Shown piece by piece: positions 1 through 26,100 of a DNA stretch of 27,446 nucleotides. This stretch comes from Planctomycetota bacterium (lineage in GTDB: Bacteria > Planctomycetota > PUPC01 > DSUN01). Position 1 is the stretch's first letter. Every line of letters starts with the position of its first letter. The DNA lies in assembly GCA_016872875.1 (NCBI GenBank), contig VGYW01000063.1:1-27446 (forward strand), given 5' to 3'. Made by a program: the position numbers and the translations under genes. The notes beneath the pieces are model-generated. The model searched no databases. It had not been told where the DNA came from and saw only the letters and a program-made list of their open reading frames with translations.

Positions 1-161
1 ATGGCCGCATCGCCCTCGACATGCAACGCGACGCCCAGGCCGACGGCCGAACCCAGACCATCGGCCTTCTTCACCGCGCGAGGGCCTGTTGCATGTGGAA
101 CTGACTCTGTAATGATGCTACACTCTCGAATCATTCGAATAATTCGAATCGGTTGGATCAT
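1..161 (-). CDS. Possible 5' fragment of a gene running off the left edge
   Basis: The minus strand is open from an ATG at 161 to the window edge. Other in-frame starts are an ATG at 134 and a GTG at 74. The part below 74 reads like ordinary protein (it begins VKKADGLGSAVGLGVALHVE). The part between 161 and 125 is encoded by a 9-base tandem repeat and is probably not original protein sequence. It follows the pseudoprotease gene on the same strand and could be the next gene of the series. No family is recognisable from about 25 to 53 residues. The plus-strand frame here is Ser/Pro/Arg-rich and less convincing. Confidence 0.25.
   Translation of the reverse strand, partial: MIQPIRIIRMIRECSIITESVPHATGPRAVKKADGLGSAVGLGVALHVEGDAA
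125..152. repeat. 9-base tandem repeat around TTCGAA
   Basis: Three copies of a 9-base unit of the form TCGAATNNN, each with the palindromic core TTCGAA. It lies just downstream of the stop codon at 168 of the minus-strand pseudoprotease gene. It has the same 9-base period as the arrays at 4401, 12283 and 19650, but a different unit. Confidence 0.7.
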
Positions 162-167
162 CCCCCC

Positions 168-1442
168 TCACGGCTGCTTCGGGGCAGGAGGGTGGTGATC
201 GGGAATCAGCGGCGTCGGCTGCGGGAACTGCTCCTCGCCGGCGTCGAGCGTGACCGAGACCGTCTTCTCCTCCTTGTCGCGCTTGAACTTCACGGACACG
301 GTGTCGCCGGCGACGTGGCGTCCCAGGAGCGAGCGAAGGGCCAGGAGGTCGCGCACCGCCTTGTCGCCGATAGCAAGAACGATGTCCTTCGCCTGGATGC
401 CCGCCTTCTGGGCGGGGGAGCCCTTCTGGACGTCCTGCACGGTGACGCCGCCGCCCGGCGCGGCGCCCGGCTGGGGCATGATGCCCAGCTTGCCCGGGCG
501 GAGCACGTCGCCCTTCTTGAGCCGGGCGAGGACCGGCTCGGCGTCGGAGAGCGGGACGGCGAAGCCGATGCCGGAGTCGTACCACTGGACGCCTTCGCCC
601 GCGGCCCCGCCGCCAGGGGCGAGGGGCACGGCGATGCCGACCACGCGGCCCTCGACGTCCACCAGCGGCCCGCCGTAGTTGGCGGGGGAGAGGTTCGCGT
701 CGGTCTGGATCGCCTTGCCCGAGAAGCGTTCCAGGGCGCTGACGATGCCGGCGGAGAGGGCGGGGGCGTCCCCGCCGTAGCCAACGCCCATCGAGACGAC
801 CCATTGGCCGACCTTGAGGCCGCCGCGTGGAGCCACGGCGGGCACGGGCAGGTCCTTCACGCCCTCAATCTTCAGCACGCACAGGCCGCGCGTCTCGTCG
901 CGTCCGCACAGCTTGGCCACGTGGCGCGAGCCGTCGCGCAGCACCACGGTGATGACCGGCGGCTGGCGGAGGAAGTTGAACGTGCTGGTGACGATGAAGC
1001 CGTCTGGGGAGATGACGACCCCCGTGGTTGGCCCCTCGCCTGGCTTGCTGACGGGAGCCATGCGTCGGCGGGGCATCGGGCCGCCCTTCGCCTTCGGGGG
1101 CGGGGGCGGGGCCAGCACGCCGCCGTAGCTCTCGATGGTTACAAGAGAGGGGAGCACTTTGGCGGCCGCGGCGCGGAAGGCCTTCGAGACGAGCCGAGGA
1201 TGGGCCTCCTCCTCCGCGGCGAGTGCTGGTGCCAGCAGAGCGCATAGCACGAACAGGGCGTTGCGTGCCGCGTGCCGCGTGCCGCGTGCCGGGGAACGGA
1301 AGATGCGTGGTGCGTGATGCGTGATGCGTGAAAAGGGCGAGGGGACACGTGCCCGCACAGGAGCGGGGTTGGGCTCCTTTCCTGGCACGCGGCACGCGGC
1401 ACGCGGCACGCAACAGAGGAGCAATGACTCGACTTGCCTCAC
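168..1442 (-). CDS. HtrA/trypsin-like PDZ pseudoprotease (second of two), secreted
   Basis: About 424 residues with a chymotrypsin-like HtrA core (roughly residues 82-290) and a C-terminal PDZ domain (roughly 310-400, with the GSPAQKAGI signature). All three triad positions are changed by my manual alignment to the active neighbour: His to Phe155 (VTSTFNF where VTNNHVV is usual), Asp to Gly186, Ser to Tyr256 (ANYGGPL where GNSGGPL is usual). It is therefore probably non-catalytic and may bind peptides or regulate the active HtrA. I chose the GTG at 1442 because its GTGA overlaps the upstream stop, as in the two genes before it, and a GGAGAA sequence lies just upstream; a longer reading to 1559 would run deep into the neighbour. 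Residues 11-61 are encoded by a repeat element inserted into the signal peptide. Without them [10 protein letters not shown] joins ALFVLCALLAPALA, a normal secretion signal. Confidence 0.85.
   Translation of the reverse strand: MRQVESLLLCCVPRAACRVPGKEPNPAPVRARVPSPFSRITHHAPRIFRSPARGTRHAARNALFVLCALLAPALAAEEEAHPRLVSKAFRAAAAKVLPSLVTIESYGGVLAPPPPPKAKGGPMPRRRMAPVSKPGEGPTTGVVISPDGFIVTSTFNFLRQPPVITVVLRDGSRHVAKLCGRDETRGLCVLKIEGVKDLPVPAVAPRGGLKVGQWVVSMGVGYGGDAPALSAGIVSALERFSGKAIQTDANLSPANYGGPLVDVEGRVVGIAVPLAPGGGAAGEGVQWYDSGIGFAVPLSDAEPVLARLKKGDVLRPGKLGIMPQPGAAPGGGVTVQDVQKGSPAQKAGIQAKDIVLAIGDKAVRDLLALRSLLGRHVAGDTVSVKFKRDKEEKTVSVTLDAGEEQFPQPTPLIPDHHPPAPKQP
1260..1414. repeat. Bipartite inverted heptamer element inside a signal-peptide region
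   Basis: Two perfect 31-base inverted arms (1260-1290 and 1384-1414), each with four tandem heptamers (CGTGCCG in one arm, GGCACGC in the other). The 93-base centre holds another heptamer run (TGCGTGA, about 1303-1330). The element lies inside the 5' end of the 168-1442 gene and adds about 51 codons in frame. No stop codon occurs in the coding direction. The two arms could form a long hairpin in DNA or RNA. Confidence 0.9.
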
Positions 1443-2533
1443 TTCGGCTTCTCCGACTGCGCCGCGGGGGTTAGCATGAGGGACTGAATGGTCATGCCGC
1501 GCTTGAGCATGACTTTGACCTCCTGGCCCGGCCTGAGCCTGGCGAGGGCCTCGTCGCACTCGCGGCAGTTGCGGACGACCTCCTGGCCGATGGTGAGGAG
1601 CAGGTCGTCCTTGCGGATGCCGGCGGCCTGGGCGGGGGAGCCGGGCGCCACGGCGTCAACGAAGGCGGGCGCCTTCTCCCCGCTGAGCTTGAAGAGCCTG
1701 ATGCCGACGTAGGCCCCCTGGCCGGGCGGCGGCTCGGCGGGTTCCACGGGCGGCGGCGTCTCCTCCTTGTCGTCCTTCCCCTCCACGAAGCGGCGGAGCA
1801 TGTCGGCGGGCACGGCGTAGTTGATGCGCGTGCGGGTGTTCACGCTCTGGAAGAGCTTGCCGATCATCCCCACCAGCTTGCCGTCGAGCGTGCAAACGGC
1901 GCCGCCAGGGGAGCCGGGGTTGCTCGTGATTGCGTCAACGAGCAGCATCTCGCCCTCGTAGGGGACGTCCTGCTTGCGGTGTCGGGCCTCCATCTCGGCG
2001 CGTAGCGAAACGACGCCGAGGCAGACGGAGAGCGGCTCGTTGGCCGCGGCCACGTTGAAGGTGTTGCTCACGGCGAACACCCAGTCGCCCTGCTCCACCC
2101 TGGCCTCATCCGCAAGGTTGAAGTAGAGGGGCGTCTTGGCTTCGACCTGGAGGAGCGCGGCCTGGAGCTTCTCGCTGCGGCGGACCTCTTTGGCCTCGCA
2201 GCGGCGGCCGTCGGGCAGGACGGCCCGCAGGGAGTCGCTGCCGAGGTAGATGCCCTGGGCGGTGAGGATGAGGCCGTCGGGCGACACGAGGAGGCCCGTG
2301 GCATAGCCGTGCTCGCGTCCCGCGCCGCCGCCATAGAGCCGCACGCAGCGCTTCTGCGCGTAGTCCATCGCGTCGCGGAAGGCCAGCGTGCCCGTCGCCT
2401 CCCCTGCCGGTTTCAACTCTCTGGTGGCACGGGCATCCTGCCCGTGTGCCACAGGCGGGACGCCTGTGCCACCGATGACTACTGCCACGGTCGCCATCAT
2501 CCGGCCCAGGTTGGGGGAGTTCCAATGGCTCAC
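1439..2533 (-). CDS. HtrA/trypsin-like PDZ pseudoprotease (first of two), secreted
   Basis: A 364-residue paralogue of its two neighbours. The HtrA-like core spans about residues 50-250, followed by a Pro/Glu-rich linker and a PDZ domain (about 275-355, GSPAQAAGI). The triad is lost with replacements different from the other pseudoprotease: Gly94 for His (LTAQGIY), Gln124 for Asp, Pro209 for Ser (GSPGGA). It is probably a non-catalytic binding or regulatory protein outside the cytoplasmic membrane. The start is a GTG whose GTGA overlaps the stop of the active HtrA gene, so translation is likely coupled. The N-terminal hydrophobic segment (MMATVAVVI) is directly followed by 17 residues encoded by a palindromic repeat ([17 protein letters not shown]), which breaks what would otherwise be a signal peptide. 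The function remains inferred. Confidence 0.9.
2423..2473. repeat. 51-base double-palindrome (REP-like) element inside the pseudoprotease gene
   Basis: This sequence starts GGTGGCAC and ends GTGCCACC, with two internal hairpins (GGGCATCCTGCCC and AGGCGGGACGCCT). It is exactly 17 codons long and reads through in frame just after the signal hydrophobic core. A 26-base half copy lies in the adjacent HtrA gene at 3155-3180. Confidence 0.9.
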
Positions 2534-4362
2534 TTGGCGCCCTCCGGGGGAGCGAAGGCGTTGTCTTCAAGCTTGGCGACGGCTTCGGCGGAGGCGACGG
2601 CGAACTCCAGGGCCACGCGCTCTTCGAGGCCGACGACGCGCCAGGTGCGGTGCGGGACGCGGAGGCCGGCGGCGGCGCGGTAGTCGCCGGAGGCCCAGGC
2701 GCCGTCGGAGCCCTTCTGGGGCGAGTCCACCGCGGCCTTGAGGAGGCGTGCCGCGGGCCACTCCTCGCCGAAGAGGGCGAACCAGAAGAGGAGCTTATTG
2801 CCCGCCTTGTCCTCCACTCGCAGGCGAAAGGCGCGCTGGCCCTGAGCCTTGTCGCCGCCTTCGAGCTCGACGGCGGCGAAGGCGTCGAGCGGCTTGTCGC
2901 GGCCGAAGGCGGCGAGGGCTCGGGCGGTGGCGACCTCGCTGTCCTTGCCCGTATCGGCCTCGCTCTTCTTTTCGGCGGCCTGGCCGGGCGCCTGGCGCCA
3001 GAAGACCTTGCCATCGCAGGCCCAGGCGTAGCCCTTCGGCAGGTCGCTGTAGCCCTCCAGCACGTCCACGCGGAAGCGGCCGTCGGCGGCGCGCAGGACG
3101 CGGCGCCGGCCGGCCACCTTGCCATCGAGGATGACATTCTCCTCGCATCGGACAGCCACAGGCGGGACGCCTGTGCCACCAGTGCGGAAGGCGTTCCAGC
3201 GGCGCAACAGGCGCTCGCACTCCTGGCGGTTGAGGTCCTTGCTCATGATCTTGCCTGGCTCGAGCTCTGGCCGCGGCGGGGCCTTCGCCTTCTCCTTGGG
3301 GTCAGGCGCTTTCTCCTTGTCCTTCGGCATGGGCACACGGCGGACGTCGGGCTGGCGCTGGGGCATGGCTCCGTAGGGGAGTGCGCGGAGGCGTAGCCAG
3401 ACGGTTCGCTCGTCGGCGCCCTTGCGGAAGGTGACGCTGACGGGCCATTCGGCGGGGTAGGTGGAGATGAGGTTGAGGTATTGGTTGGAGGTTCGGATGC
3501 GGACGCCGTCGAAGGCGATGAGCTGGTCGCCGAGGCCCAGGCCGAGCTTGGCGACGGCGGAGTCCTCGTTGATCGCGTCACAGATGACCTTGCCTTCATC
3601 GTCGCGGAACGTGGCGTCGAGGGTCGCGTGCTGGCAGACCTTGGTGGCGAGGAGGTCGCCGAGGAAGTTCCTCGCCTGCTCGATGGAGATGGCGTATCCG
3701 ACTCCGACGTTGACGCGGCCGCGCTCTTCGAAGGAGCCGCGTCCGTTGATGCCGATGACCTGGCCGGCGAGGTTGAAGAGCGGCCCGCCTGAGTTGCCGG
3801 GGTTGATCGAGGTGTCGAACTGGATGCAGTTGCCGTAGACGAGGGTGCGGCCGCCGCCCTCGCCGGGCTGGAAGCGCTCGACGCCGCTCACGATGCCGAA
3901 GGTGACGGTTGGCCTGAAGTCCTCGCTGAGTGCGAAGGGGTTGCCCATCGCCATCGCCCAGTCGCCCACGCGGACGGCGCGGGAATCGCCCAGGGGGGCG
4001 AAGGGGAACTTGGGCTTTCCCTTGAGGCGAATGACCGCGACGTCGCCGCCGGGGTCGGTGCCGATGGTCTCCCAGTCGTAGAGGCTGCCGTCGGCGAGGC
4101 CGGCCTTGCCCGCTCTGCCTGCGGCGCGGACGACGTGGTGGTTGGTGAGGGCGAAGCCCTGCTCGTCGTAGAGCACGCCCGAGCCGCCCCCGCGGTCGGT
4201 CGTCGGGCCATAGACGGCGACGACGGCGCCGTAGACGCTCTCAATGGCCCGCACGCGCGCCGCCTCGGCGCCCTTCACGCGGGCGAGCTCCTCTGGGGAG
4301 AGGGGCTCCGACGCCGCGTAGGCAAGCGCAGCGAACCACAGGATGGAAGCGATGGGCCTCAC
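2530..4362 (-). CDS. HtrA/Deg-type serine protease with PDZ domain and extra C-terminal domain
   Basis: A 610-residue protein with a likely signal sequence ([13 protein letters not shown]). The trypsin-like domain (about 35-235) has an intact triad: His76 in TNHHVV, Asp107 in GGDVAVI and Ser191 in [13 protein letters not shown] domain follows (about 240-335). A charged Lys/Pro linker (about 345-375) leads to a C-terminal region of about 230 residues with beta-strand character that I do not recognise. The family degrades or refolds damaged envelope proteins. The start is a GTG at 4362 with no strong ribosome-binding site; the upstream gap holds an inverted 9-base repeat. The 3' end overlaps the next gene by GTGA. 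A 26-base palindrome adds GGTGVPPVA within the C-terminal region. It is the only one of the three HtrA-like proteins here that looks catalytically competent. Confidence 0.93.
3155..3180. repeat. Half copy of the REP-like palindrome inside the HtrA gene
   Basis: Twenty-six bases from GCCACAGG to CTGTGCCACC, with the inner hairpin AGGCGGGACGCCT. They match the right half of the 51-base element at 2423-2473 and read in frame as GGTGVPPVA. Confidence 0.9.
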
Positions 4363-4400
4363 TTGTTGATGCCTGCTAACAGTGGAGACATGTTCGTGTC

Positions 4401-4556
4401 GTCCCTTAGGTCCCTGTGGTCCCTGTGGTCCCTGTGGTCCCTGTGGTCCCTGTGGTCCCTGTGGTCCCTGTGGTCCCTGTGGTCCCTGTGGTCCCTTCTT
4501 CCGCAGGGTGCAGAGGGGACCTAAGGGACCACAGGGACCACAGGGACCTAAGGGAC
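4401..4556. repeat. Bipartite inverted 9-base repeat element between NPCBM and HtrA genes
   Basis: The left arm is GTCCCTTAG followed by nine exact copies of GTCCCTGTG (4410-4490). The right arm holds CACAGGGAC and CTAAGGGAC units (4521-4556). Positions 4401-4427 and 4530-4556 are perfect 27-base inverted repeats, including the variant end unit. The whole fills most of the 210-base gap upstream of the HtrA start (GTG at 4362), so it would be in the HtrA 5' leader if the genes are co-transcribed. Confidence 0.95.
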
Positions 4557-4572
4557 ACGGGCCATTGCCAGC

Positions 4573-5760
4573 TCACTTCGTCTCGCGAATCACGCGCGCA
4601 TCGCACCAATCGGCCCTATCTGCCAGGTCGAGGTCCTCGCCCCAGTCCACGAGTAGGGTGAGGCGCTGGGCGCCGGTGATCTTGACGCGGACGTCGGCGG
4701 GCGGGTCGGCGCCGCGCATCGGCTTGCGGAAGAGCTCCTTGCCGTCGGCAAGGACCACGAACACGCAGTCGCCCTTGCCGCCCGCGCTGGCGTCAATGCC
4801 GATGGTGGCCGCGAAGAGGTCGAACCTGCCGTCGAGGGCGTAGCTCAGGCGGCAGCGGGAGTGGACGCCAAGGCCCTTCTCGTAGACTGTCTTGCCGAGG
4901 GTGAGGGGCTGGTTGAGGACGCTGCGGTCGCGGCGCCACGGCCCGGCGTAGGTCACGAGCGGCTCCTCCACGGCCTCGATTGGGTCGAGGTCCGAGAGGA
5001 AGGCGCACCGCGAGCTGCGAACGTCCAGGCGGCAGACGGCGTCCCAGGGGCGCGACAGGTCGAGCTTGTCGGCCAGGCGGAGGTCGAGCCGGCCGTTCTC
5101 CATGCCCTTCACGGTGGCCCAGAGCGAGGAGCCGTCCTTGAGGTGGACGAGGCACTGGCCCATGTGGTCGGGGCGCCCGTTCCTGTGGGCGAGGACGATG
5201 CCGTAGACCCTTGCCCTGGGGAGCTTGCGCTCGGCGTCGTTCCAGATGAAGCGCACCTCGTCGCCCGTGATGGCCTGGAGGCCGCCGCGGACGGCTTGGA
5301 TGGTGCCTTCGGTGACGGCAAAGAGCTCGTCGAGCCTCGCCTCGTCTTGTGCAAGGCTGGCCTCGAAGGCTGGCGGGCTGGCCTCTTGCGCGACCCCGAT
5401 GCGCACGGCGCGGACGAGGGCCAGGGGGAGAGCAAGGCCGTCGGCGTCGGCCCATTTGAGGGTGAACACCTGGCCGTCGAAGGAGACGTTCTGCGCGTGG
5501 AGCACGCCGCCGCTGTTCAGGTACACGTCGCACGGGGCTTGGGCTGTGGAGGCGGCCTCAGAGCGCTCGATGCGGCGGAGGCCCATGAGGTCGAGGGGCT
5601 CGGGCCGCCCCTGGCAGCGGACCATGCCCTGAGCGTCAATAGCCGTCACCGTGTCCTGGACCGCGCTGCCGTCGAGGAGCACCAGCCTGTCGGCGGCCCA
5701 CCCGATGGGTGCCACGAGGGCGAGCGCCACGCAGAGGACGGGGAAACAGTGTCGCCGCAT
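4573..5760 (-). CDS. Secreted NPCBM-domain protein
   Basis: A 395-residue protein with a clear signal peptide (residues 1-23, core [13 protein letters not shown], cleavage near WAA). The middle has repeated beta-rich segments of the type LLDGSAV...TAIDAQG, resembling small barrel repeats. The last 130 residues or so match the NPCBM module (novel putative carbohydrate-binding module): [18 protein letters not shown], then [40 protein letters not shown] and [16 protein letters not shown] domains are usually attached to glycosidases; no catalytic domain is visible here, so a binding role at the cell surface is the safest reading. The start is an ATG at 5760 placed directly after a run of heptamer repeats, with no visible ribosome-binding site. 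It lies 54 bases after the hydrolase-like gene. Confidence 0.88.
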
Positions 5761-5790
5761 TTCGGATTTCGGATTTCGGATTTCGGATTT
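5761..5790. repeat. Heptamer array TTCGGAT (single arm) abutting the NPCBM start codon
   Basis: Four tandem TTCGGAT units lie immediately upstream of the NPCBM ATG. It is the same unit as one arm of the elements at 9993, 20765 and 23109, but here the partner arm is absent. Confidence 0.9.
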
Positions 5791-5793
5791 CCC

Positions 5794-5811
5794 GCATCTC
5801 TCCAGAGATGC
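5794..5811. repeat. Perfect short hairpin between the hydrolase-like and NPCBM genes
   Basis: GCATCTCT, two bases, then AGAGATGC: an 8-base stem with a minimal loop, directly after the stop codon at 5815 of the hydrolase-like gene. No T-run follows on the minus strand, so I do not call it a terminator; it may protect mRNA ends or be part of the adjacent repeat. Confidence 0.7.
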
Positions 5812-5814
5812 CGG

Positions 5815-7785
5815 CTAGCGGTCGCCTTCTTGGAGGCTCTTGTAGTATTGCTCGAGGAGCTCGCGGTAGCGTTCGGGGAACTTGGCTTTGAGGACGTTTA
5901 GGATTTCGGCGCGCTCGCGTGCGCGGGCGTTGCCCCAGACCTCGTCGGCGCGGCCGCGTGCGAGGCGGCCGAGGGCGCCGATGCGGCCCTGGCCAGGTGC
6001 CACGGAGGACTGGCTGGCTGGGCCGGACGGCTGCTGGTTGCCGCTGGGCGGCCCGCCCTGGCCGCCCTGGCCGCCGCCGCCACCGCCCCCTCCGCCGCCC
6101 TGTTGCTCGCGGTCCTCCGCCTCCTTGATCAGTTTGTCGAGCATGGCGATGATGCGCTCCTGGCGCTCCTGGGTGGGCTTGCCCGACTGCTCGATGCGGA
6201 GGCGGCGGCGGGAGTCGTCCATGCGGTCCTGGACGTCACTCAGGGAGCCCTCTTCGAGGGCCTGGATGGTGCGCGCCACGTGGTCGGCGCCCACGCGCAT
6301 CCGCTCGGGGGCGTCGGGGTAGAGCTTCACGAAGTCGCGGAAGACCCTGAGCGCGGCCTCGCGGCGCAGCAGCTCGGCCTGGCAGACGCCGACGAGGAAG
6401 AGCGCGTCGCCGCCGTAGAGCGTGCGCTCGAGCCATTCGCCCGCGACCTTGGAGAGGAGGGGCAACGCGTCCTCGTAGCGCTCCTCGATGATGAGCGCCC
6501 GGCCCTCGAAGTAGGCGGCGTGGGCAGCCAGATAGGGGTCGGGCGCCTGGCGAAGCTCTTTGAGGACGGCGATTGCCTTCTGAGTGTCCTCGTTGTTCAG
6601 CGCGCCCAGTGCGTCCCTGAGCTTCGCGTGGAGCACGGCGACAGCGGTCGTGAGGGCGTCAGGCAACTGGGCGGGGTCGCCCTTGGCCTCCGCGAATATC
6701 CGCTTGATCGCTGCCCGCGCCGGCTCGGCTACCTTGGGGTCGGCCTCGACGGCCTTGAGGAAGGCGGCCACGACGTTGGCGGGCACGGGGGGCTTGTAGA
6801 GCTTCATGCCGGCCACGGCGGGGTCCTTCTCCATCTCGGCGATCATCGTGGCGGCCTCAGCGATGATGGCCTTGAGGGCGGGGTCGGTGGTGTTCTGGAA
6901 GGTCTCGCGGAACTCCAGCACCTTGTCGTAGGCGGCGGGGCGCTCGTCCTCCTTGAGGAGCTTGCGGACTTCGCCGAACGCCTCGGTCGCGGCGGCGAGA
7001 CGCTCCTTGCGGGCCTCGGGCGAGTCGTCGTCCTGGTGGACGAACCAGAGCTTGCTCATCCACTTGGCGCCGTCCTCGAGGATGCGTGCGGGTGCGGGCT
7101 CGGGCTGCTTGGCGTCGAAGGGCTGGAGGCGGAAGGGGATGCTCTTTTCCTGGCACTCGGCGCTCGCCTTCATCATCTCGCGCGCGTTGGGGTTCATCCG
7201 CGTGGTGGTGGCGAAGACGGCGACGTGCTTCGGGTGGTCGGCAGGGGTGCCAGGATCAAACGCGCCGTCGGCGAAGACGCCCGCGAACTTCGCGGGATAG
7301 GAGCGTGCGAGAGCGACGGCGGCCTTCGCCCCGCCGCCGAAGCCCGCGGCGTAGGAGCGGCGCGGGTGCGCCTTGAGCTTCTTCTCGGCGTTCGCAATCA
7401 CGGCGTCCCAGATCGGCTTCAGGTCGGCGGCCTTCGGGGCGTCGGTGACGCCGCGGTCGCACCAGGCGATGGCCCAGCCGAACTGGTTGGCGATGGGCGC
7501 CCAGCGCTTGGCGGAGAGCTCGCCGTCGTTGTCGGTGGCCGAGAAGCCGTAGAGCACTGGGTAGCGCTTCGCGGCGTCGAAGCTCTTCGGCAGGCAGAGG
7601 TGATAGGTGAGCGTGCCATCCTCATCGAGGGTGATGCGCTGGATGTTCGGCGCCTCGGCGGGCCTCTCTGGCGCGGCGGCGGGCGGCTTGGCCTCGGGCT
7701 TGGCCTCCTTGGCCTTCTCCTTTGGCCCGGCGGCGAAGGAAACGGCGGCGAGACACGCGACCGTGAAGGCGAGAGCCGTTCGCAT
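5815..7785 (-). CDS. Secreted alpha/beta-hydrolase-like protein with TPR-like and Gly-rich tail
   Basis: About 656 residues. The ATG at 7785 gives a clean signal peptide (MRTALAFTVACLAAVSFA) with AGGGG seven bases upstream; the longer open frame to 7899 is only translated repeat. Residues 50-260 resemble the esterase/PHB-depolymerase type of alpha/beta-hydrolase (RYPVLYGFSAT, then GWAIAWCDRGV). The nucleophile elbow reads G148-F-G-G-G152 instead of G-x-S-x-G, so the catalytic serine appears to be glycine. Residues about 385-530 form helical TPR-like repeats. Next come a ten-glycine run, a Gly/Gln/Pro/Ser linker, and a C-terminal helix pair (EVWGNARARERAEIL, then KFPERYRELLEQYYKSL). A structural role in the envelope is more likely than catalysis. 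Confidence 0.82.
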   Translation of the reverse strand: MRTALAFTVACLAAVSFAAGPKEKAKEAKPEAKPPAAAPERPAEAPNIQRITLDEDGTLTYHLCLPKSFDAAKRYPVLYGFSATDNDGELSAKRWAPIANQFGWAIAWCDRGVTDAPKAADLKPIWDAVIANAEKKLKAHPRRSYAAGFGGGAKAAVALARSYPAKFAGVFADGAFDPGTPADHPKHVAVFATTTRMNPNAREMMKASAECQEKSIPFRLQPFDAKQPEPAPARILEDGAKWMSKLWFVHQDDDSPEARKERLAAATEAFGEVRKLLKEDERPAAYDKVLEFRETFQNTTDPALKAIIAEAATMIAEMEKDPAVAGMKLYKPPVPANVVAAFLKAVEADPKVAEPARAAIKRIFAEAKGDPAQLPDALTTAVAVLHAKLRDALGALNNEDTQKAIAVLKELRQAPDPYLAAHAAYFEGRALIIEERYEDALPLLSKVAGEWLERTLYGGDALFLVGVCQAELLRREAALRVFRDFVKLYPDAPERMRVGADHVARTIQALEEGSLSDVQDRMDDSRRRLRIEQSGKPTQERQERIIAMLDKLIKEAEDREQQGGGGGGGGGGQGGQGGPPSGNQQPSGPASQSSVAPGQGRIGALGRLARGRADEVWGNARARERAEILNVLKAKFPERYRELLEQYYKSLQEGDR

Positions 7786-7831
7786 CGGACTGCCCCTAAC
7801 AACTCCTAGTGCGGCGATTGGCCGCAACCAA

Positions 7832-7909
7832 GGGGGATGAATGGATGGTTGGATGAATGGATGATTGTCTGACACCCATCCACCCATCCAGTCATCCATT
7901 CATCCCCTT
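7832..7909. repeat. Bipartite inverted octamer element (GGATGAAT / ATTCATCC)
   Basis: Imperfect tandem octamers form two opposing arms. The outer 15 bases are a perfect inverted pair (7833-7847 and 7893-7907). It occupies the 158-base gap between the coiled-coil protein gene and the hydrolase-like gene. The same octamer family recurs at 14841 and 18430. Confidence 0.9.
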
Positions 7910-7943
7910 CTACATTGCAACGAGCGCCCAGCGGATGCTCGTA

Positions 7944-10109: not shown

Positions 10110-10131
10110 CGCAGGGCTCCTTTGTGGCGGG

Positions 10132-12309: not shown

Positions 12310-12318
12310 AAGGGACCT
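12283..12318. repeat. 9-base tandem repeat AAGGGACNN spanning a stop and a start codon
   Basis: Four 9-base units with invariant AAGGGAC and variable last two bases. On the minus strand the array covers the stop codon of the vWA gene (12317-12319), the 7-base gap and the first codons of the DUF4175-like gene. The same unit occurs at 19650-19685, and related GGGAC units at 4521-4556. Confidence 0.9.
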
Positions 12319-14806: not shown

Positions 14807-14840
14807 TTTGGCCCAACAGCGTGTGACGAAACGACTATGA

Positions 14841-14935
14841 GGATGAATGGATGAATGGATGAATGGATGAATGAGAAGAGCAACGGCTGCCTGAGTCTTT
14901 CATTCATCCAATCATCCAGACATCCATTCATCCCC
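14841..14935. repeat. Bipartite inverted octamer element between BatA-like and vWA genes
   Basis: Four exact GGATGAAT units (14841-14872) and an opposing arm of ATTCATCC-type units (about 14900-14935). Outer ends 14841-14853 and 14921-14933 are perfect inverted repeats. It fills the 133-base intergenic gap. Confidence 0.93.
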
Positions 14936-14939
14936 CTTC

Positions 14940-17237
14940 TCACTTTGTGGTCTCCCGTCTCTTTCCAAACCACCAGCCGAGCGCCTGCTCGACGCAGAGC
15001 GTGACCACCATCGCCAGGAGGAGTCCGCGCCAGAGCTCGCTCTTGGCCCCCGCGACGCCCTGGGCGAGGTACTCGCGCCCTTCGAGGAAGGCGATCTTGG
15101 TGCCGCTGACCCCGCGACGCAGGGCGCGAGGCTCGGCGGGGGTCAGGTCGCCCTCGGTCGCCTCCACGTTTGCCGCGAAGAGCTCGGTGTCCACGCTGCC
15201 GTCGTGGCGCTTGAGGCGGACCTTGTAGAGGCCGCTGCGGAGGGTGTCGTTGAACTGCGCTCGGAAGCTCTGGCCGTCCTCGCCGGGCGCCGCCTGGAGG
15301 CTGGCCGCCGGGCCATCGGACGGCTCCACCTGGACCTCGGTGCCGTGGAGAGAGGGGTCAACCTTGACCTTGATAGGCGCGCCCGCGGCGAGCGAGCCCT
15401 CGTCGGGCGCCTCGCGCGTCGCGTAGCGGGCCATCTCCAGCACGGTCACGAGGTAGCTGGGGTCCGACGGCCAGTTGTTCCACTCGCCATCGGCGGAACT
15501 GGTCGCCAGGAGAACGCGGCCGTTGCCCACCTTGCGCTCGACGATTGCGGGTGAGGCATCGGAGTCGGAGTACGACGCGAGGAGCTGGACGCGCCCGCTC
15601 GCGAGGTCGTCCTTTCGCACGGCGCCGCCCCACCATCGGAAGAACTTCACACGGCGCAGGAAGGGGTTCGCCGTGCCCTCGAAGATGCGGAGCACGGGGT
15701 GGTGGATGCTGGTCTCGCTCAGGTGGACCCATTGGCGTTGGGCCTCGTCGCCCGCGATGGTGCTCAAGCGCACTGGGAGCAGCCCCTTGCCCTCGGCCCA
15801 GAGCTTCTCGTTGTAGGCCGCCTCCTCCACCTGGTCGCCGAGGAAGATGATGAGGCCGCCGCCCGCGCCCACCCAGCTCTCCAGGGCCTTGCGGCGTCCG
15901 TCCGTCACTCGATAGACGTTCGCCAGGACGACCACCTGGAAGCGGTCGAGGGTGAGCTCTTCGAACTGGTTCTCGGTGACGACCGTGACGTCGTTGCCGC
16001 TGAGCGTTACGCCGGGCGGAGCCAGGGCGCGCTCGACGTAGAAGGTCTCGGTCTGCCCGTACTCGGAGGTCGGCTCGCCGTCCACCAGGAGGATCGGGAT
16101 GCCTTGTCGGATGCGTGCGGCCAGGTGCCGCACGTTGTCGCGCGGGAGCGGGTCGGCGGGTATCTCGGCCCGCACCGCGGCCGAGCCGGTCTCGCGGAAG
16201 CTGAAGGTGAACGGCACGGTCGCCCGTGCGCCAGGCTCGATGAGGTCAATCGTCGCGCGGAGCGGCACGGCATCGCCCGCCGCGAAGGTCAGCGGTACGC
16301 TCGCGGCGGCCCCCTCGCCCCAGTTCGTAACCGCCACCTCGAACTGCGCGGGCACGTTCGCGATGAGCGCCTTCTCGCGGAAGGCGACCTCGGTGATCGC
16401 CAGGTTCGGGGCCTTCGCGCCGCCGACGTTCACCACCACCAGGCTGTCCACCCGCTCCGCCAGCCGCTTCAGGATCACCAGCGGCCCCTCAGGGGGCTTC
16501 GAGCCGCGAGCTTCGGGCTTCGAGCCTTCGCCCTCCTCGCTCGCGGCTCGTGGCTCGCGGCTCGTGGCTTCCTCCGGAAGCCAATCCCGCCGCCTCAGGT
16601 CCGTGATGATGGTCAGCGCTCGATTCAGGTTGCCGCGCGGCGAGGCCAGGGTGTGCTCGAGGGCGGCGAGGGCGACCTCGAAGGCGGCCGACTTGTCGCA
16701 CGGCTCCAGGCTCTCGATCGTCCTGACCACGGCGTCCACCTTGGTGCCCGTGAGGTACTGGCCGCTGAGGACCGGGCGGTTGGGCTGCGAGGTGAGGATG
16801 AGGGTCAGGGTGTCGCCTGGGTGCTCGGCGGCGGTGCGGCGTGCGAGCTCGGCGAGGCCCTGCTTCGCCTCCTCGAAGACCGTGCGCGAGGCGAGCCGTG
16901 CGGCCATGCTCGGCGAGTCGTCGAGCAGCACGATGCGCTCCGTGCGAGCCGTCTCGATCATCCGTCCGGCCAGCCCGCTGCGGGTCAGGAAGAGCCTTGC
17001 GGCGAGGAACGCCAGCAGGATGATGGCCAGGCACCGCAGGAGCAGGAGGATGAGGTGTTCGAGCTGGATGCGGCGGCGGTTCCGCCGTTCGGCCTCGAGG
17101 AGGAACTCCATCGCCGCCCAGTCGAGTATGCGGAACTTCCGCCGGCTCAGCAGGTGGATGATGATGGGCGAGGCGATCAGCAGCGTGCCCCAGAGGAGCG
17201 CGCCGTTCACCGCTCCGATGCCTAGCCAGTTGCCCAT
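14940..17237 (-). CDS. BatA-like vWA membrane protein
   Basis: A 765-residue protein. The BatA-type N-terminus has two membrane segments (about 8-30 and 60-82) around the conserved HLLSRRKFRILDWAAMEFLL. A vWA domain follows with D106-D-S-P-S110 as metal site and IITDLRRRDW later. Residues about 330-560 combine a beta-sandwich with an amidotransferase-like region (IPILLVDGEPTSEYG; GGGLIIFLGDQVE). A C-terminal membrane helix lies at about 735-755. BatA-type proteins work with MoxR ATPases, possibly in envelope maturation or stress tolerance; the exact substrate is unknown. A repeat-encoded stretch (about residues 223-247, SREPRAASEE and EARGSKPPEG) interrupts the loop after the vWA fold. The ATG at 17237 has only a distant AGGA upstream. 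Confidence 0.9.
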   Translation of the reverse strand: MGNWLGIGAVNGALLWGTLLIASPIIIHLLSRRKFRILDWAAMEFLLEAERRNRRRIQLEHLILLLLRCLAIILLAFLAARLFLTRSGLAGRMIETARTERIVLLDDSPSMAARLASRTVFEEAKQGLAELARRTAAEHPGDTLTLILTSQPNRPVLSGQYLTGTKVDAVVRTIESLEPCDKSAAFEVALAALEHTLASPRGNLNRALTIITDLRRRDWLPEEATSREPRAASEEGEGSKPEARGSKPPEGPLVILKRLAERVDSLVVVNVGGAKAPNLAITEVAFREKALIANVPAQFEVAVTNWGEGAAASVPLTFAAGDAVPLRATIDLIEPGARATVPFTFSFRETGSAAVRAEIPADPLPRDNVRHLAARIRQGIPILLVDGEPTSEYGQTETFYVERALAPPGVTLSGNDVTVVTENQFEELTLDRFQVVVLANVYRVTDGRRKALESWVGAGGGLIIFLGDQVEEAAYNEKLWAEGKGLLPVRLSTIAGDEAQRQWVHLSETSIHHPVLRIFEGTANPFLRRVKFFRWWGGAVRKDDLASGRVQLLASYSDSDASPAIVERKVGNGRVLLATSSADGEWNNWPSDPSYLVTVLEMARYATREAPDEGSLAAGAPIKVKVDPSLHGTEVQVEPSDGPAASLQAAPGEDGQSFRAQFNDTLRSGLYKVRLKRHDGSVDTELFAANVEATEGDLTPAEPRALRRGVSGTKIAFLEGREYLAQGVAGAKSELWRGLLLAMVVTLCVEQALGWWFGKRRETTK
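16496..16569. repeat. Inverted short-repeat element inside the BatA-like gene
   Basis: Degenerate units such as GCTTCGAG on one side and GGCTCGYG octamers on the other. GAGCCGCGAGC (16501-16511) is a perfect inverse of GCTCGCGGCTC (16539-16549). It is translated in frame as an Arg/Ser/Glu/Pro-rich loop. Confidence 0.8.
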
Positions 17238-17262
17238 TAATCTGACAGTCCTGCGTTAGACG

Positions 17263-17474
17263 GGACAGAGGAAAGAAGGCAAAAGGCAAAAGGAAGAAGG
17301 CAAAAGGCAAAAGGCGGAAGGCGGAAGGCGGAAGGAAAAAAAGCAGAAGACAGGGGGTCGCGCAAGACATCTTCCCTTCTGCCTTTTCACTTTTGCCCTT
17401 TGCCTTTTCACTTTTGCCCTTTGCCTTTTCACTTTTGCCCTTTGCCTTTTCACTTTTGCCTTCTCCCTCTGTCC
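17263..17474. repeat. Large bipartite heptamer element between DUF58 and BatA-like genes
   Basis: The left arm is AAGGCAA-type heptamers (about 17275-17335). The right arm is a 21-base higher-order unit of three heptamers (TTTTCAC, TTTTGCC, CTTTGCC) repeated about three times (17385-17463). The outer ends (17263-17285 and 17453-17474) are near-perfect inverted copies with one indel and one mismatch. It fills most of the 247-base gap before the BatA-like start. Confidence 0.92.
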
Positions 17475-17484
17475 TCTGATCCGC

Positions 17485-18429
17485 TCACCGCTTCACGACG
17501 GCCCGGGCGGCCTTTCGTCGGAAGGCCAGGTAGCTCGCCAGGGCCGCATCGAGCGGGTCGGAGGTGCTCATGAGCATGTAGTCAATGCCGTTGTTCGCGC
17601 ACGTGGAGCGGACGCGTGTGAGGAAGCGCTCGACGGCCTCGAGATAGGCCTTCCGCAGCGCACGCGGCTCCGTGAGCACCTGGAGGTCTATCTCCAGGCC
17701 GCGGAAGAGGATGTTGTCCTGGAACGGGAACTCGAGCTCGTGTTCGTGCATGACGTGGAAGACGATGACCTCGTGCCGCCTGTGGCGGAAGTGCTGGAGG
17801 GCGCGGGTGAGGCTCGCGACGTCCAGGAAGCAATCCGAGAATAGCACGACGAGGCCCCGCCTGGTGATCTGCTCGGCCAGGCGGTGGAAAATGTCGGCCA
17901 CGTCCGTGCGGTGGTCGGGCTGCGTGTTCGCCAGCTCGTGAAGGAGGAGCTTGAGATGGGAGGGGTGCGAGCTGGCCGGCAGGTTGCGGCGGATCTCCGT
18001 GTCGAAGGTCACGAGGCCGACAGCGTCCTGCTGCTGTTGGAGGAGGTAGGCGAGCGAGGCGGCGGCGGTGCAGGCGTAGTCGAACTTCCGCATCCCGCCG
18101 TGGCCGTCGCCGTAGCGCATCGAGCGGCTGGCGTCCACGAGCAGCGTGCTCCGCAGGTTCGTCTCCTCCTCGTATTGCTTCACGTAGAGGCGGTCGGCGC
18201 GCGCCCAGACCTTCCAGTCAATGTGCTTCGGCTCGTCCCCTGGCACGTATTCGCGGTGGGTGGCGAACTCGACCGAGTAGCCGTGATAGGGGCTTTTGTG
18301 CATGCCGCTGATGAAGCCCTCGACGACGGTCCGCGCCCGCACCTCAAGGCGCGTGATGCGGTTGAGGACCTTCGGGTCGAGGTATTGGCGGCCGTCAGCT
18401 TCGGGCAAGTGCGCATCCCTCAACGACAA
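17485..18429 (-). CDS. DUF58 family vWA-like protein
   Basis: Up to 314 residues. The DUF58 signature is clear: SPYHGYSVEFATHREYVPGD then HIDWKVWARADRLYVKQYEE. A vWA-type metal motif D99-A-S-R-S103 follows (LLVDASRSM). There is no membrane segment, so this is probably the cytoplasmic adaptor between the MoxR ATPase and membrane vWA proteins. The start is unsure: the longest frame begins at a TTG at 18429 beside an octamer repeat with no ribosome-binding site, while a TTG eight codons later (18405, Leu-Pro-Glu-Ala) has GAGGGA about ten bases upstream. The gene lies 85 bases after the MoxR gene. Confidence 0.92.
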   Translation of the reverse strand: MSLRDAHLPEADGRQYLDPKVLNRITRLEVRARTVVEGFISGMHKSPYHGYSVEFATHREYVPGDEPKHIDWKVWARADRLYVKQYEEETNLRSTLLVDASRSMRYGDGHGGMRKFDYACTAAASLAYLLQQQQDAVGLVTFDTEIRRNLPASSHPSHLKLLLHELANTQPDHRTDVADIFHRLAEQITRRGLVVLFSDCFLDVASLTRALQHFRHRRHEVIVFHVMHEHELEFPFQDNILFRGLEIDLQVLTEPRALRKAYLEAVERFLTRVRSTCANNGIDYMLMSTSDPLDAALASYLAFRRKAARAVVKR

Positions 18430-18514
18430 GGAGGATGAATGGAGGGATGGATGACTGGATGAATGTAAGAGAGGAGGCGTGTTCTTTCATTCATCCATTC
18501 ATCCACCCATCCAA

Positions 18515-18520
<6 letters not shown>
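18430..18520. repeat. Bipartite inverted octamer element between MoxR and DUF58 genes
   Basis: GGATGAAT-type units (about 18430-18466) face ATTCATCC-type units (about 18486-18520). The right arm overlaps the last codon and stop of the MoxR gene (stop at 18515). It is the third member of the octamer family in this window. Confidence 0.9.
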
Positions 18521-19624
<1,104 letters not shown>

Positions 19625-19649
19625 GCGTAAGGCTTCTCCTGTCCGAGGG

Positions 19650-19685
19650 AAGGGACCTAAGGGACGAAAGGGACCGAAGGGACAT
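19650..19685. repeat. 9-base tandem repeat AAGGGACNN in the MoxR leader
   Basis: Four 9-base units with the same invariant AAGGGAC as the array at 12283. It lies in the 70-base gap between the toroid-protein stop and the MoxR ATG. Confidence 0.9.
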
Positions 19686-19694
19686 AGGGCGAGC

Positions 19695-20867
19695 TCAACG
19701 CTGGAGGATGGGCAGGTATTGATAGGGGAGCTGGAGGACAAGGAGGGCGATGGCAGTGCCGTAGACGTGGCCCGCGAAGTCGCCCTGCCAGCTCCCGTCG
19801 GCGTTCTGCTGCTTGATCAGCTCGTCGCGGTGCTTCGGGTAGAACTCCCGCCAGTCCTCCTCGCTGCTGAAGAACATGGCTTGGGACGTGTAGAGGAGCG
19901 AGTAGAAGCGGTGGCCCTGGAAGACGGTCGCGGAGTTGCTCCCCTTGAGGAGCTTCTTGAGGTAGGCGAGGGCCTTGAGTGCCACGGGGTTCTCGTACTG
20001 GCCGGCGTTGTAGAGGGTGGCCACGGCCGCGGCGGAGATGGCCGGGCGGCTCCCCCCGCGGCTCATCAGCGAGTAGCTGATCCCGCCGTCCTCGTTGGCG
20101 CACTTGTTGATGTACTCGCAGGCGCGCACGATGGTGCTCTTTGGCACCTTGATGCCGGCGTTGCGCGCCGCGCGGAGCGCCTGTATCTGGGTCACTGTCA
20201 CCGAACCCTCGTCGCCGTTCTGGTCGGGCGTGTAGAGCCAGCCGCCGTTGAACGACTGGCTCTTGGCGGTGAGGCCGACGGCGCGGTTGAGGGCCTCGTG
20301 GAGCTTGCGCTGGAGGTCGGTGTCGTGCTCGGCGCCGTATGCCTGCGCGAGGAACATCGTGGCGAAGCCGTGGCCGTGCATCGAGCGGTTCTCCTCCACG
20401 ATGGCGGTGATGAGGCCGCTGCGGGTGGTGGAGTTGAGCATGAAGTAGACCGCTCGGCGCACGTTCTCGGCGTATTCCCCTTCGCAGGGCGTGTTGCCTG
20501 CGGCCATCAGCGCCAGGCCGGCGAGGGCGGTCATTGCGGTGGGGTAGGAGCCGCCCATGCCCTCGGTGCGCCAGCAGCCGTTCTTGGCCTGGGTGCGGGC
20601 GAGGTAGGCCAGGCCCTTCTGCATCGCCTGCTCGGCCTCGGGGGTGACCATGTCGGGCCGCACCCGCGCCTCGGCCCCGTGGGCAGGGGAGAAGGCAAGA
20701 GGCGAAAGGGGGAAGGCGAAGGGCAAAAGGCAAAGGGCAAAAGGCAGAAGGGAGAAGGCGAGACGATTTCGGATTTCGGATTTCGGATTTCGGATTTCAG
20801 ACTTCAATCCGCAATCCGCAATCCGCAATCCGCAATCGCCAATCCGCAATCTCCGACAGCTCGTCAT
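19695..20867 (-). CDS. Prenyltransferase/squalene-oxidase-repeat (alpha/alpha toroid) protein, secreted
   Basis: A 390-residue protein. From about residue 75 it has helical hairpin repeats of the terpene-cyclase/prenyltransferase toroid ([63 protein letters not shown] with [13 protein letters not shown]). No DxDD or other cyclase motif is visible, so it is likely a binding toroid as is common in Planctomycetota. The ATG at 20867 overlaps the propeller-gene stop by ATGA and has GGAGAA about eight bases upstream, so the start is well supported. Codons from about 5 to 58 are almost entirely heptamer repeat; the hydrophobic part ([17 protein letters not shown]) comes from CTTTTGC-type heptamers and may itself serve as the signal peptide. 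Confidence 0.9.
20690..20852. repeat. Composite heptamer element in the toroid gene's 5' end
   Basis: Three adjoining heptamer runs: GGCAAAA-type (about 20690-20760), TTCGGAT (20765-20798) and CCGCAAT (20805-20852). The last two form an inverted hairpin with one mismatch per unit. All are translated on the minus strand without a stop. Confidence 0.93.
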
Positions 20868-23800
20868 GGTTTCTTCTCCGCGGGCGGGCTCGGGTCGCGC
20901 CCAAAGACCTGGATGCCGTCGTGGCGGGCAAGGATGATCATGCCGTCCTGGACGAAGAGCTGGTTGACGTTTTCGAACTTGCCATCGGCCCTGCTGGATG
21001 GGAGGCTGACGCCTTCGAGGGCCTTGCCGTCGGACTTCCGCACGAAGCCGATCTTGCGGAGGTTGGTGTGGCGGATGTTGTTGCCTTCCTTGATGATGTC
21101 AACCTCCATCCAGGGCACGAGGTCGCCCGAGCGCGCCCAGAGCTCCGAGAGGTCAATGCCGAAGACGTTTCCGCTGCTGGCTGGGCCGAGGGCGACGTTG
21201 CCGGTGGTGAGGTCCACGGTTCCGCCGCGCATCTTGCCCTGGCCGTCGTGCGCCCAGAAGCCCAGCTTCTTGCCGTCGGGGCTGAGGCTGAGCTGGGAGA
21301 TGAAGCCCTGAATCTTGTCCTGCGGGACAGTGACCTTGACGGCGCCGGAGGCGAGGTCGCGTATCTCGATGCCGCGGTTGGCGCCGCCCTGGAGGTAGAA
21401 GAGCTCGTCGCTGAGGAGCGCCGGCTGGCGGTACTCCTGGCCGAGGTCGAGGTTCCAGAGCATCTTGCCCGAGGGGAGTTCGAGGAGTGAGACCTTGTTT
21501 CCGCCCTTCGTGGGCTCCCACTTCTGGAAGAGCGCGCCGCGGCGCGTGACCTGGAAGGAGCGCGGGTAGCCCATGCGCTGGCCCTCGCCGAGGTCCACCG
21601 TGCCAACCCGCTCGCCCGAGAAGACGTCGCATATCCAGCACTCGCCGCTTTCGAGGGAGAAGATGACGTAGCGTCCGGCCTCCTGCGCCCAGGTGATCTG
21701 GCGGCGGCGGAAGCTGCGCTCCCAGCGGTCCTCGCCGGTCGCCAGCTCGAGCACGCGGATGGCGTTGGAGCTTGGCCGCAGGACCACGCAGCCGGCGGGC
21801 GCGCCGCCGCCCGCGCGGTACTGGATGTTCATGCGCCAGGCGAACGACGTAGCGTAGCGGACGCCGCCCGGCTGCGCCGCGGGCTGGGTGCGGCTCCAGA
21901 GGGTCTTGCCCGACACCAGGCCGAAGCCCTCCCAGGCGTTCTGGCCCTGGAGGAGGGCGACGTGGCCGTCGCGCGCCCCCTCGTGGGCCTGGAACTGGAG
22001 ATAGTGCGGCGGGCGGGCCATCGGCGCCTCGTAGAGCGTCTGTCCGTCGCTCAGCCGCCGGCAGACCAGGCGTCCGTCCGCGCCGTGCCGCTGGAAGAGC
22101 AGGTGCTGTTCGAGGAACTGCGAGAAGCCGAGCACGCCGGCGTAGGGGGACTGCCGGAGCTTGATCGGATTGGCGTAGCCGGGCTGGGTCTGGGAGGCCC
22201 AGAGCTGGCGCCAGGGCGGTTCGGGGACCCCCCTGAACATGTCGCGGCCGGCCTCGGCGAGCGCCTTGTCCGCGAGGCGGGCCGCTGCGAGCTCCTTGGC
22301 GGGCTTCGTCGCGCCCTCGAGGGCCACCGGCGCGTCGGCGTACTCCTTCGCCAGAAACTCCCAGGTGCCGCGTGCCTGCCAGAGCCAGCCCTTCTTCTGG
22401 TAGAGGTCGGCGAGTGCCGCCAGCCCCGCGGCGGCCGTGCCGGGATGGGGCGAGCGAGCCATCTCGCGGAGCATGGCCTCCGCCTTCTCGAAGATGCCCG
22501 TCGCTGCCTCGGACGCCGCGGCCTTCAGCCCAGCCTCGATGGCGGCCTGGGTGCCGGGGTAGAGGCGGAGGATGGCGCGGAGCGAGGGCGTGTCGTTGCC
22601 CGAGCGCGCCGCGGCGAGCGCGGCGTCGGCGTGCCTGGCGAGGAGCGGGGCCAGGCGGGCGTCGCCCTCGGCAAGGAGGCGCTGGATGGCGCCGGTCGCC
22701 ATCGCCTGGGGCGATGCCTTCCAGGCGTCGCCGCCGGCGTCGAGTTCCACGGGCGTGCCCTTGCCCGATTGTGCGAACTCCAGGAGCAGGGTGATGGCCT
22801 GGTCGAGGTCGCCGCGCTCGCGGTGGGCCGCCACGAGGGGCAGGACGGCGAGGCCCTCGTCCGGGCTGCCCTTCGCCGCGGCGTGGGCATCCCGGAGCAA
22901 CTCAAGCCGCCGGTTCGGCTCGCGGCGGGCCAGCTCCGTCAGGCAGTCCACGAGGTCGTGACGGGCCTTGTCCTTCAGCTTGGCGTCGGGTGTGTCGCTG
23001 ACCGCCGCCTTGAGGTCCTCCACGGCGTCGTGAACCCGGTCGTACTTGAGTCGCAGGCCGGCCCGCGCGAAGCAGGCCTCCGCGCGGCTCTTGAGGATCT
23101 CCGCAATCTCGGATTTCGGATTTCGGATTTCGGATTTCATTCCAAAATCCGCAATCCGCAATCCGCAATCCGCAATCCATCTGGCCAGTTGCAGGTCAAG
23201 CTGTGCCACACGGGTCTCGGCCTCGGCGAGCTTCGGCGCGGCGTTGACCACTGGATAGGTGTCGGTGAGGCCGACGACGACGAGGCGCGCGCCATCGGAG
23301 AAGAGGTTTCCGACCGGCTCCTCCTCCTCGGTTGACACGCGGATAGTGGCCTGGAGCTCCCCCTTCTTGGGGTCGAGGCGGAGGATGCACTTGCCGCTGG
23401 GCACGTAGAGTGCGTCGGGCGTGAGGATGCCGCGGCCGCACGCGCGGTCGCGCTCCTCCAGCTTCCGCTCCCAGGCCGCCTGCCCCGTGAGCGCGTCGAG
23501 CCGCCGCACGCAGGCGGCTGAGCTCGCGTAGAGGCTCGTGCCGTCGAGCCCGAGGCAATACTGGAGCCCAGGCGTCCTGTGGCGAGCCGTGACCTTGCCC
23601 GATGCCGCGTCGAGCACGAGGACGCACTCGGCGTCGCTGGGCAGCACGATGAGGCTGCTGCCCTCCACCGCCACCTGGCTGTCGCGCCAGCCGCGTATCG
23701 CCGCCGTCTGACCGAAGAAGGGCGTGGACGTGCTCCGGTCCCAGTCCTGCTCGTACTGCGAGGCCCAGTGGAGGCTGCCGTCGGTGCCGTCGAGGCTGAA

Positions 23801-25969: not shown

Positions 25970-26100
25970 TCTGCTGTCCCTTCGGGACTGCAATCCTGTC
26001 CCCTTACTTGTGCGGGGCTGTACTCAGGGCGCTGGGAAATGCTGCCTGGTGACGCCAGCTTCACGGAGCAGAGGTGCTCGCGCCGACGGCAGGCTCTTCT

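Follow-up and report, generated by a model that had tools for sequence, protein, structure and literature searches.

What are the paired arrays of short tandem repeats that lie between the genes of a 27,446-bp stretch of planctomycete DNA (contig VGYW01000063.1, 68.7% GC; the window, hereafter), and how do they come to be there? A first-pass annotation had described them as elements with one plan, in which tandem units of 7-9 bases are followed, beyond a centre, by the reverse complement of those units. Ten such inverted elements, with arms of about 7-9-base units, are found in the window, along with solitary arrays. These are probably dispersed, non-autonomous palindromic repeats, akin to repetitive extragenic palindromic (REP) sequences and bacterial interspersed mosaic elements (BIMEs) or to the Rickettsia palindromic elements, and maintained chiefly at operon-internal gene ends. 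Each element would be a hairpin, mostly of 60-110 bp, whose two arms of about 30 bp are each a short tandem array. Each arm may lengthen and homogenise through its own slippage, while whole elements would spread and replace one another at permissive junctions. The transcribed hairpins, in a putative role at the RNA level, may tune or stabilise polycistronic mRNA.

Arrays were located with Tandem Repeats Finder and an in-house detector, and length counts vary with the detector threshold. At three thresholds the first detector returned 20, 17 and 15 arrays in the window, against a mean of 0.0 in five third-order Markov shuffles each. With the stricter detector, and a partner score of at least 12 within 200 bp, 12 of 17 arrays had an inverted partner, three a direct partner and none a partner in the reversed control. 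The existence of inverted tandem-array elements is thus upheld, as is the presence of different unit families on a single layout. When folded as RNA, nine of the elements (all but 17276-17460) were each more stable than every one of 200 shuffles (z -3.5 to -9.1). The earlier view that such elements fill most gaps between genes needs correcting. At six of the 12 junctions an inverted element lies clear of the neighbouring genes or barely overlaps them (1263, 4401, 7835, 14841, 17276 and 18433); three lie within coding sequence (9994, 16497 and 23109) and that at 20765 sits at a gene start. What had been read as one element from 20765 to 23178 is two, 20765-20851 and 23109-23178, and the size of 155 and 156 bp shared by those at 1260 and 4401 looks coincidental, the others measuring about 65-185 bp.

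Relatives were found by scanning genome contigs with the DUF58 protein and keeping the best 80 loci, of which the nearest, from Planctomycetota bins, were L001 (93% identity) and L002 and L003 (80%). L001 belongs to the closest relative among the genomes compared, a metagenome bin (G001) surveyed over 80 stretches that make up 1.59 of its 8.9 Mb; L003, together with L327, belongs to a second bin, G003. With partners sought within 160 bp at score 12, 71 of the 171 arrays in the G001 sample had an inverted one, 24 had a direct one and seven had one in the reversed control. Inverted pairing is therefore non-random; the arrays merge into 51 elements of 58-192 bp. With the stricter detector and the partner test applied to the window, inverted, direct and control partners numbered six, one and none for eight arrays in L001; 17, four and one for 50 arrays in G001 (400 kb); 14, four and one for 24 arrays in G003 (400 kb); and none, one and none for eight arrays in G002 (230 kb). 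The corresponding counts were nine, three and three for 28 arrays at other planctomycete loci, none, one and none for 10 arrays at mostly Verrucomicrobia loci, and three, one and none for seven arrays from other phyla. Inverted pairing is strong in this lineage and non-universal.

The case for dispersal of whole elements comes from the GGATG family, to which the compact 71-bp element at 7835-7905 belongs (GGATGNNT units in one arm, NNNCATCC in the other). Six compact 71-bp copies of this family, picked as alike, occur on six G001 contigs and are pairwise identical at 63-70 of 71 positions. The flanks of 14 of the 15 pairs lack similarity at E 1e-3, while one pair shares a tail of 28 more bases. 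Near-identical copies with unrelated flanks are read here as a sign that whole elements were copied recently, on occasion together with a neighbour. The tail, conserved though varying (TTGGTTGCGGCC..GGCCGCATTAGGAG, with a GCGGCC hairpin and AGGAG), follows the window element on the minus strand at 7803-7834 and also follows GGATG elements in L269 (17720-17752), L337 and L338. Of 17 fuzzy matches to this tail, four stand after a GGATG arm (that of 7835-7905 among them) and the other 13 look like chance. A gene starts on the same strand 37-46 bp past the tail in three of the four cases; the fourth could not be judged.

The placement of the elements is regular. Of the 51 in G001, 40 lie in co-directional gaps, seven in coding sequence, three in convergent gaps and one in a divergent gap. 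For the 44 intergenic elements, gap number predicts 32.8 co-directional, 5.4 convergent and 5.8 divergent (P 0.009, 0.36 and 0.025), and gap length predicts 26.6, 7.5 and 9.8 (P 1.5e-5, 0.07 and 0.0004). The upstream stop codon is the closer gene boundary for 32 of the 40 co-directional elements and the next start for seven, and a distance of 30 bp or less separates 31 of them from the stop and 14 from the start. Strong hairpins directly 3' of stop codons might be taken for intrinsic transcription terminators, an explanation that is highly improbable since a downstream T-run (a U-run in the transcript) accompanies 1 of the 40 co-directional elements, convergent gaps show no excess, and none of six terminator-like sites in window positions 1-20000 falls on an element, in a scan that allows short loops only.

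Comparison of orthologous junctions shows how such sites change. A simple in-house caller predicts 14 genes in the window, every one on the minus strand, with products that include three HtrA-like proteases, an NPCBM protein, a VWA protein, a DUF58 protein and a MoxR ATPase; BatA-like, prenyltransferase-like, est and coil are working labels. The cluster is syntenic in G001, and 12 junctions were compared, one of which (VWA|BatA) is unreadable at a G001 contig end; the assembly breaks inside it, between the end of L001 and the start of L322. Among the 11 readable junctions, only HtrA3|NPCBM carries the same family in both genomes. There the window element (4401-4556, 9-bp units, GTCCCTGTG x~10 and GGGACCNNA x~5) has about ten uniform GTCCCTGTG units in its left arm, where G001 has about five varied ones, and this expansion of one arm, longer and more uniform than its ortholog, was counted in favour of arm independence. 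At est|coil the window holds the element at 7835-7905 and G001 has no array.

Arrays of different families occupy five further junctions: c10132|VWA, BatA|DUF58, DUF58|MoxR, MoxR|prenyltransferase-like and prenyltransferase-like|PQQ. At the second of these G001 has a GGATG element where the window has an irregular GGCAAAA/TTTTGCC element (17276-17460), and at the fourth a GGATG pair where the window has a solitary AAGGGACNN array (19650-19683); at DUF58|MoxR the window itself has a GGATG element (GGATGNNT/NNNCATCC, 18433-18520) that overlaps the MoxR stop region. Other palindromes are present in G001 at HtrA1|HtrA2, NPCBM|est and HtrA2|HtrA3, the window having its own palindrome at the last, and coil|c10132 has a palindrome in G001 only. 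At HtrA1|HtrA2 in G001 (L326 1502-1773), a palindromic unit of 30 bp, repeated head to tail several times, takes the place of the window's element. In the G003 loci L327 and L003 the detector saw no array at seven readable junctions.

Between the window and G001, same-family sharing in this cluster is confined to one of the 11 junctions and one element inside the BatA-like gene, and the species pairs compared may differ in divergence. Inverted elements stand at five of the 11 readable cluster junctions in G001, whereas the 675 co-directional gaps sampled hold 40 (P 0.00025), an enrichment that is suggestive, the cluster having been chosen because of the window and the five being a reading of detector output. 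Taken together, the junctions indicate that occupancy is more conserved than family, as would be expected if a hairpin were selected for there or if the site were locally permissive.

Elements also enter genes without loss of frame. In gene 7944-10109, the element at 9994-10058 (ATTGCGG/GAAATCC) constitutes a net in-frame insertion of 28 codons within the signal peptide that is absent in G001: the window reads VGAVGL, 29 residues that are mostly element-encoded, and ALAAEPA, and G001 reads VGTLGLHALAAEPA. The element at 23109-23178 (GGATTTC/GCAATCC, also read as TCGGATT/AATCCGC), in frame inside gene 20864-25585, is absent in L001, with a net difference of 15 codons. A third, degenerate element with GGCTCGN units (16497-16570), in frame inside the BatA-like gene 14940-17237, is common to the window and L001, its length unchanged.

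The relation between the two arms bears on how they arose. The annotation had thought a dedicated copying or fold-back mechanism worth considering. In de novo fold-back, slippage would make an array and template switching would then generate the inverted arm from it, which would account for the unit family common to both arms and for the perfectly complementary arms of window element 1263-1411 (GCGTGCC x4/GGCACGC x4, 7 bp, at HtrA1|HtrA2). The larger families argue otherwise. In 44 G001 GGATG elements, each taken in a single register from those listed among 80 forward matches (overlaps included), facing variable triplets were identical in 0.119 of 176 comparisons, against 0.209±0.029 with the right arms shuffled (P 0.0007), and a partly overlapping earlier set of 22 elements gave eight identical of 81, against 0.21. 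No comparable deficit appears when the arms are shifted by one or two units. Within an arm, too, adjacent units resemble each other less than expected, clearly so in right arms (P 0.0055) and weakly in left arms (P 0.08). Among 22 GATT elements from G001 and the window, 19 have a base 5 that distinguishes every left unit from every right unit (a difference of 0.92 vs 0.62±0.09; 0 of 3000 shuffles), and base 7 tends toward agreement.

Facing arms that are less alike than chance in G001 and the window argue against arm-to-arm copying, as do constant polarity and near-identical dispersed copies. By contrast, the arms of 16 GATT elements taken from eight other genomes do agree, base 5 differing in 0.31 vs 0.50 in shuffles that mix genomes. 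Well-matched arms also occur in several small families, such as GTAATCC and that of 1263-1411, so that mismatch is no rule of the class. De novo fold-back is, on balance, quite unlikely in this lineage. Compensatory arm changes, considered as evidence of selection on the stem, gave the opposite result in G001 and the window, and the match deficit could also stem from loss of perfectly matched elements through instability or poor assembly. The tips of many GATT elements in G001 and the window read GATTGAAATC or its reverse complement, and each arm may accordingly have arisen from a short seed hairpin, repeating its own half of that hairpin in tandem.

Arm length is a further regularity. In the 50 of 51 G001 elements that were measured, periods 6, 7, 8, 9 and 10 (3, 28, 13, 4 and 2 elements) have mean arm lengths of 28.5, 29.9, 33.1, 34.2 and 29.8 bp, respectively. 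Arms of about 30 bp across these periods imply that copy number drops as the period lengthens; units per arm average 4.27 at period 7 (28 elements) and 4.13 at period 8 (13 elements). A strict length ruler is weakened by the difference in arm length among periods 7, 8 and 9 (Kruskal P 0.013), and the detector's lower length limit also shapes the distribution. Such lengths could be set by a dedicated enzyme that extends DNA ends or hairpins by tandem units, in the manner of telomerase or of terminal-polymerase repair. This is very unlikely, although the left and right lengths lie closer than when shuffled (mean difference 4.6 vs 6.0, P 0.0026) and the two arms carry homogeneous yet different variants. 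The left-right correlation is weak (Spearman 0.23, P 0.10), detection thresholds affect the lengths, no candidate enzyme is at hand, and the near-identical copies at dispersed sites suggest that elements are copied whole.

The unit families are many and, within the sample, consistently oriented. The GGATG pattern GGATGNNT x3 has 543 matches in G001 (overlapping ones counted) and none in the reversed control; elsewhere it matches in 1 of 49 other genomes, there within a plain GGAT tetramer repeat. That a single unit family is widespread was considered and rejected: of 392 Planctomycetota genomes, 9 have GGATT inverted pairs (G001 among them) and 1 has the reversed control, and GGATTNC x3 occurs in 11 of 50 genomes, with one control match, in G050. 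Adjacent GGATG arm pairs are oriented (+,-) in 18 of 18 cases in 1.2 Mb from G001, L001 and the window; eight of 44 GGATG arms are unpaired, although four of the eight have a weak partner arranged in this same way. Polarity within a family is constant in all 37 classified elements of the 51 in G001, covering eight families. Six families have at least two members, 35 elements in all, and are informative; the other two are single-member. In G003, GGARTGC inverted elements (L142 7134, 9561, 11965 and 19192) occupy a similar place in seemingly related gene copies, with differing unit orders.

Constant polarity, arms near 30 bp for periods 6-10 and units with a conserved core and free bases (AAGGGACNN, GGATGNNT) are features that paired binding sites for a global regulator or nucleoid protein, of about four units per arm, might display, and the same idea has been published for paired sites in Geobacter (PMC2700814). 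Such an assignment is nonetheless unlikely, given the many unrelated families in one genome, the different families at the same orthologous junction, and a stop-proximal position, with 1 of 44 intergenic elements divergent, that is ill-suited to promoter control. An assembly artefact would be suggested by the metagenome bins and by the contig break in VWA|BatA; it is extremely improbable, for most arms are inexact complements, polarity and placement are regular, and like elements occur in separate assemblies (the window, G001, G003 and G050).

A common centre may unite the families. In 41 of the 51 G001 elements, those of at least 75 bp, motifs were scored directly on the left of the centre and as reverse complements on its right, with expectations from element-free gaps. 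AGAGAA was found nine times against 0.42 expected, AGAAGA 11 times against 0.73 and GAGAAG 12 times against 1.04, each occurring twice in the opposite polarity. The motif was first spotted by eye in the counted sample and afterwards ranked among all 5- and 6-mers. In the distant planctomycete G050, six of seven GATT elements have GAAGA to the left of the centre and TCTTC to the right, a hint of a common centre from an independent source. It is conceivable, and tentatively proposed, that the elements are miniature mobile hairpins of cross-phylum distribution defined by architecture, with a common purine-left/pyrimidine-right centre (AGAGAAGA..TCTTCTCT), interchangeable arms of about 30 bp, machinery other than REP-associated tyrosine transposases (RAYTs), and arm-family switching at fixed operon junctions.

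RAYTs were considered as mobilisers of the dispersed repeats and rejected. PF01797 matches occur in 25 of 32 genomes searched, equally in those rich and poor in the searched patterns. No array was detected within 1.5 kb of any of eight RAYT genes checked among the 19 PF01797 matches in G001, though one of these eight lies 141 bp from a two-unit GGATG arm. The end tags of REPs and of REP doublets forming hairpins (REPINs) show no excess either, with GTAG in 5 of 51 elements (random 7.4±2.7) and CGTC in 15 of 51 (16.7±3.6). At the gathering score, Rfam placed no family on the elements of the window, L326 and L001, and elsewhere only Acido-Lenti-1 (RF01687). Matches to this ‘sRNA’ lie at window 25944-25989, L251 2827-3922, L112 9860-10035, and L326 2803-2847 and 6570-6615. 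Nine fall within 1 kb of a RAYT gene in G001 (L251) and two near another (L112), with none in four other RAYT stretches; from their position beside RAYT genes, Acido-Lenti-1 may partly be RAYT-associated REP DNA.

Several observations weigh against the interpretation as dispersed palindromic repeats. No mobilising enzyme was found, the search covering PF01797 among transposases, and no target-site duplication was found, with none seen by eye at one clean filled/empty coding site. At the threshold used, 100 of the 171 G001 arrays lack an inverted partner, and the depletion of convergent gaps in G001 is non-significant (3 vs 5.4 expected). The left arm at HtrA3|NPCBM is GTCCCT in both the window and G001, opposite to three other AAGGGAC elements in G001, and stands outside the polarity sample. 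Finally, a single genome, G001, was sampled deeply, and it is a metagenome bin sampled over 1.59 of 8.9 Mb.

The Rickettsia palindromic elements are palindromes found in gaps and, in frame, within genes. The present elements share in-frame coding insertion with them, a likeness of architecture, and differ in that their arms are tandem arrays. The cyanobacterial short tandemly repeated repetitive (STRR) sequences are degenerate heptamer arrays between genes. The latter property is shared here; the difference lies in pairing, inverted pairs being few among the heptamer arrays of Nostoc according to one report (PMC4692102). Direct TAACTGA repeats, with one inverted case, are described in another (PMC4679880). 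Tagged REPs are recorded in bacteria that include Planctomycetes (PMC3733652). As with REP, BIME and REPIN sequences, dispersed palindromes near gene 3' ends are found here; unlike REPs and REPINs, these lack GTAG/CGTC excess and detected arrays beside eight RAYT genes, and have tandem arms of many families.

The two-arm form, which the annotation did not know as a described class, has precedents in Xanthomonas and Geobacter. In Xanthomonas campestris and X. axonopodis, GGGAATC heptamer arrays, mostly of four units and degenerate as GGGANTN, form 70 and 75 inverted convergent pairs and are mostly intergenic, closer to the 5' neighbouring open reading frame and chiefly between aligned frames (PMC4692102). 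They comprise one unit family, discussed as G-quadruplexes, whereas here there are many families, no G-run is needed, and families differ at orthologous junctions. The ‘global regulator binding sites’ of Geobacter metallireducens consist of four tandem octamers, three 8-9-mers or five heptamers each; most are paired on opposite strands at variable distance, with insertion sequence elements at a fixed distance from some (PMC2700814). They were proposed as protein sites, with no common centre mentioned in the accessible text. Here, too, arrays are paired on opposite strands, each arm holding about 3-5 degenerate 7-8-bp units, and periods 6, 9 and 10 also occur. No treatment of such paired arrays as one class was found in the open-access literature searched, as far as its accessible text extends. 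Many families on one plan, a shared centre, arm-length regularity and family switching are apparently new. The isolated Xanthomonas and Geobacter reports are thereby joined to a similar architecture in Planctomycetota, in which arm sequence can change while a site remains occupied, and arm length, centre and mismatch pattern provide testable regularities that bear on the origin and spread of tandem-armed palindromes and on the ways in which they reshape coding sequence, signal peptides for example.

The window holds several further features. A GGATGAAT inverted element, of unit class GGATGNNT/NNNCATCC, occupies VWA|BatA-like at 14841-14933. The pairing of 17276-17460, whose right side has 21-base higher-order units, was read from its two detected arrays and is unscored in the partner test. 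An inverted element at 20765-20851 (GGATTTC/GCAATCC, also read as GATTTCG/CAATCCG) lies over or just before the start of gene 19695-20867, according to the start codon chosen, and a solitary GGCAAAA-type array (20692-20758) encodes the hydrophobic part of what appears to be the signal peptide of that gene. Other solitary arrays are TGCGTGA (1304-1331, within element 1263-1411), ATTTCGG x4.7 (5759-5791) and AAGGGACNN (12283-12316, at the start of gene 10132-12309). Gene 20864-25585 has a 28-base tandem repeat of 1.9 copies (24425-24478) in a stretch that is gapped relative to L001, and gene 7944-10109 has GSQG-rich coding repeats of 12 and 24 bases (8747-8884 and 9148-9269). A further palindrome stands at about 2424-2475, at the start of the second HtrA gene, and part of it recurs at 3158-3180 inside the third.

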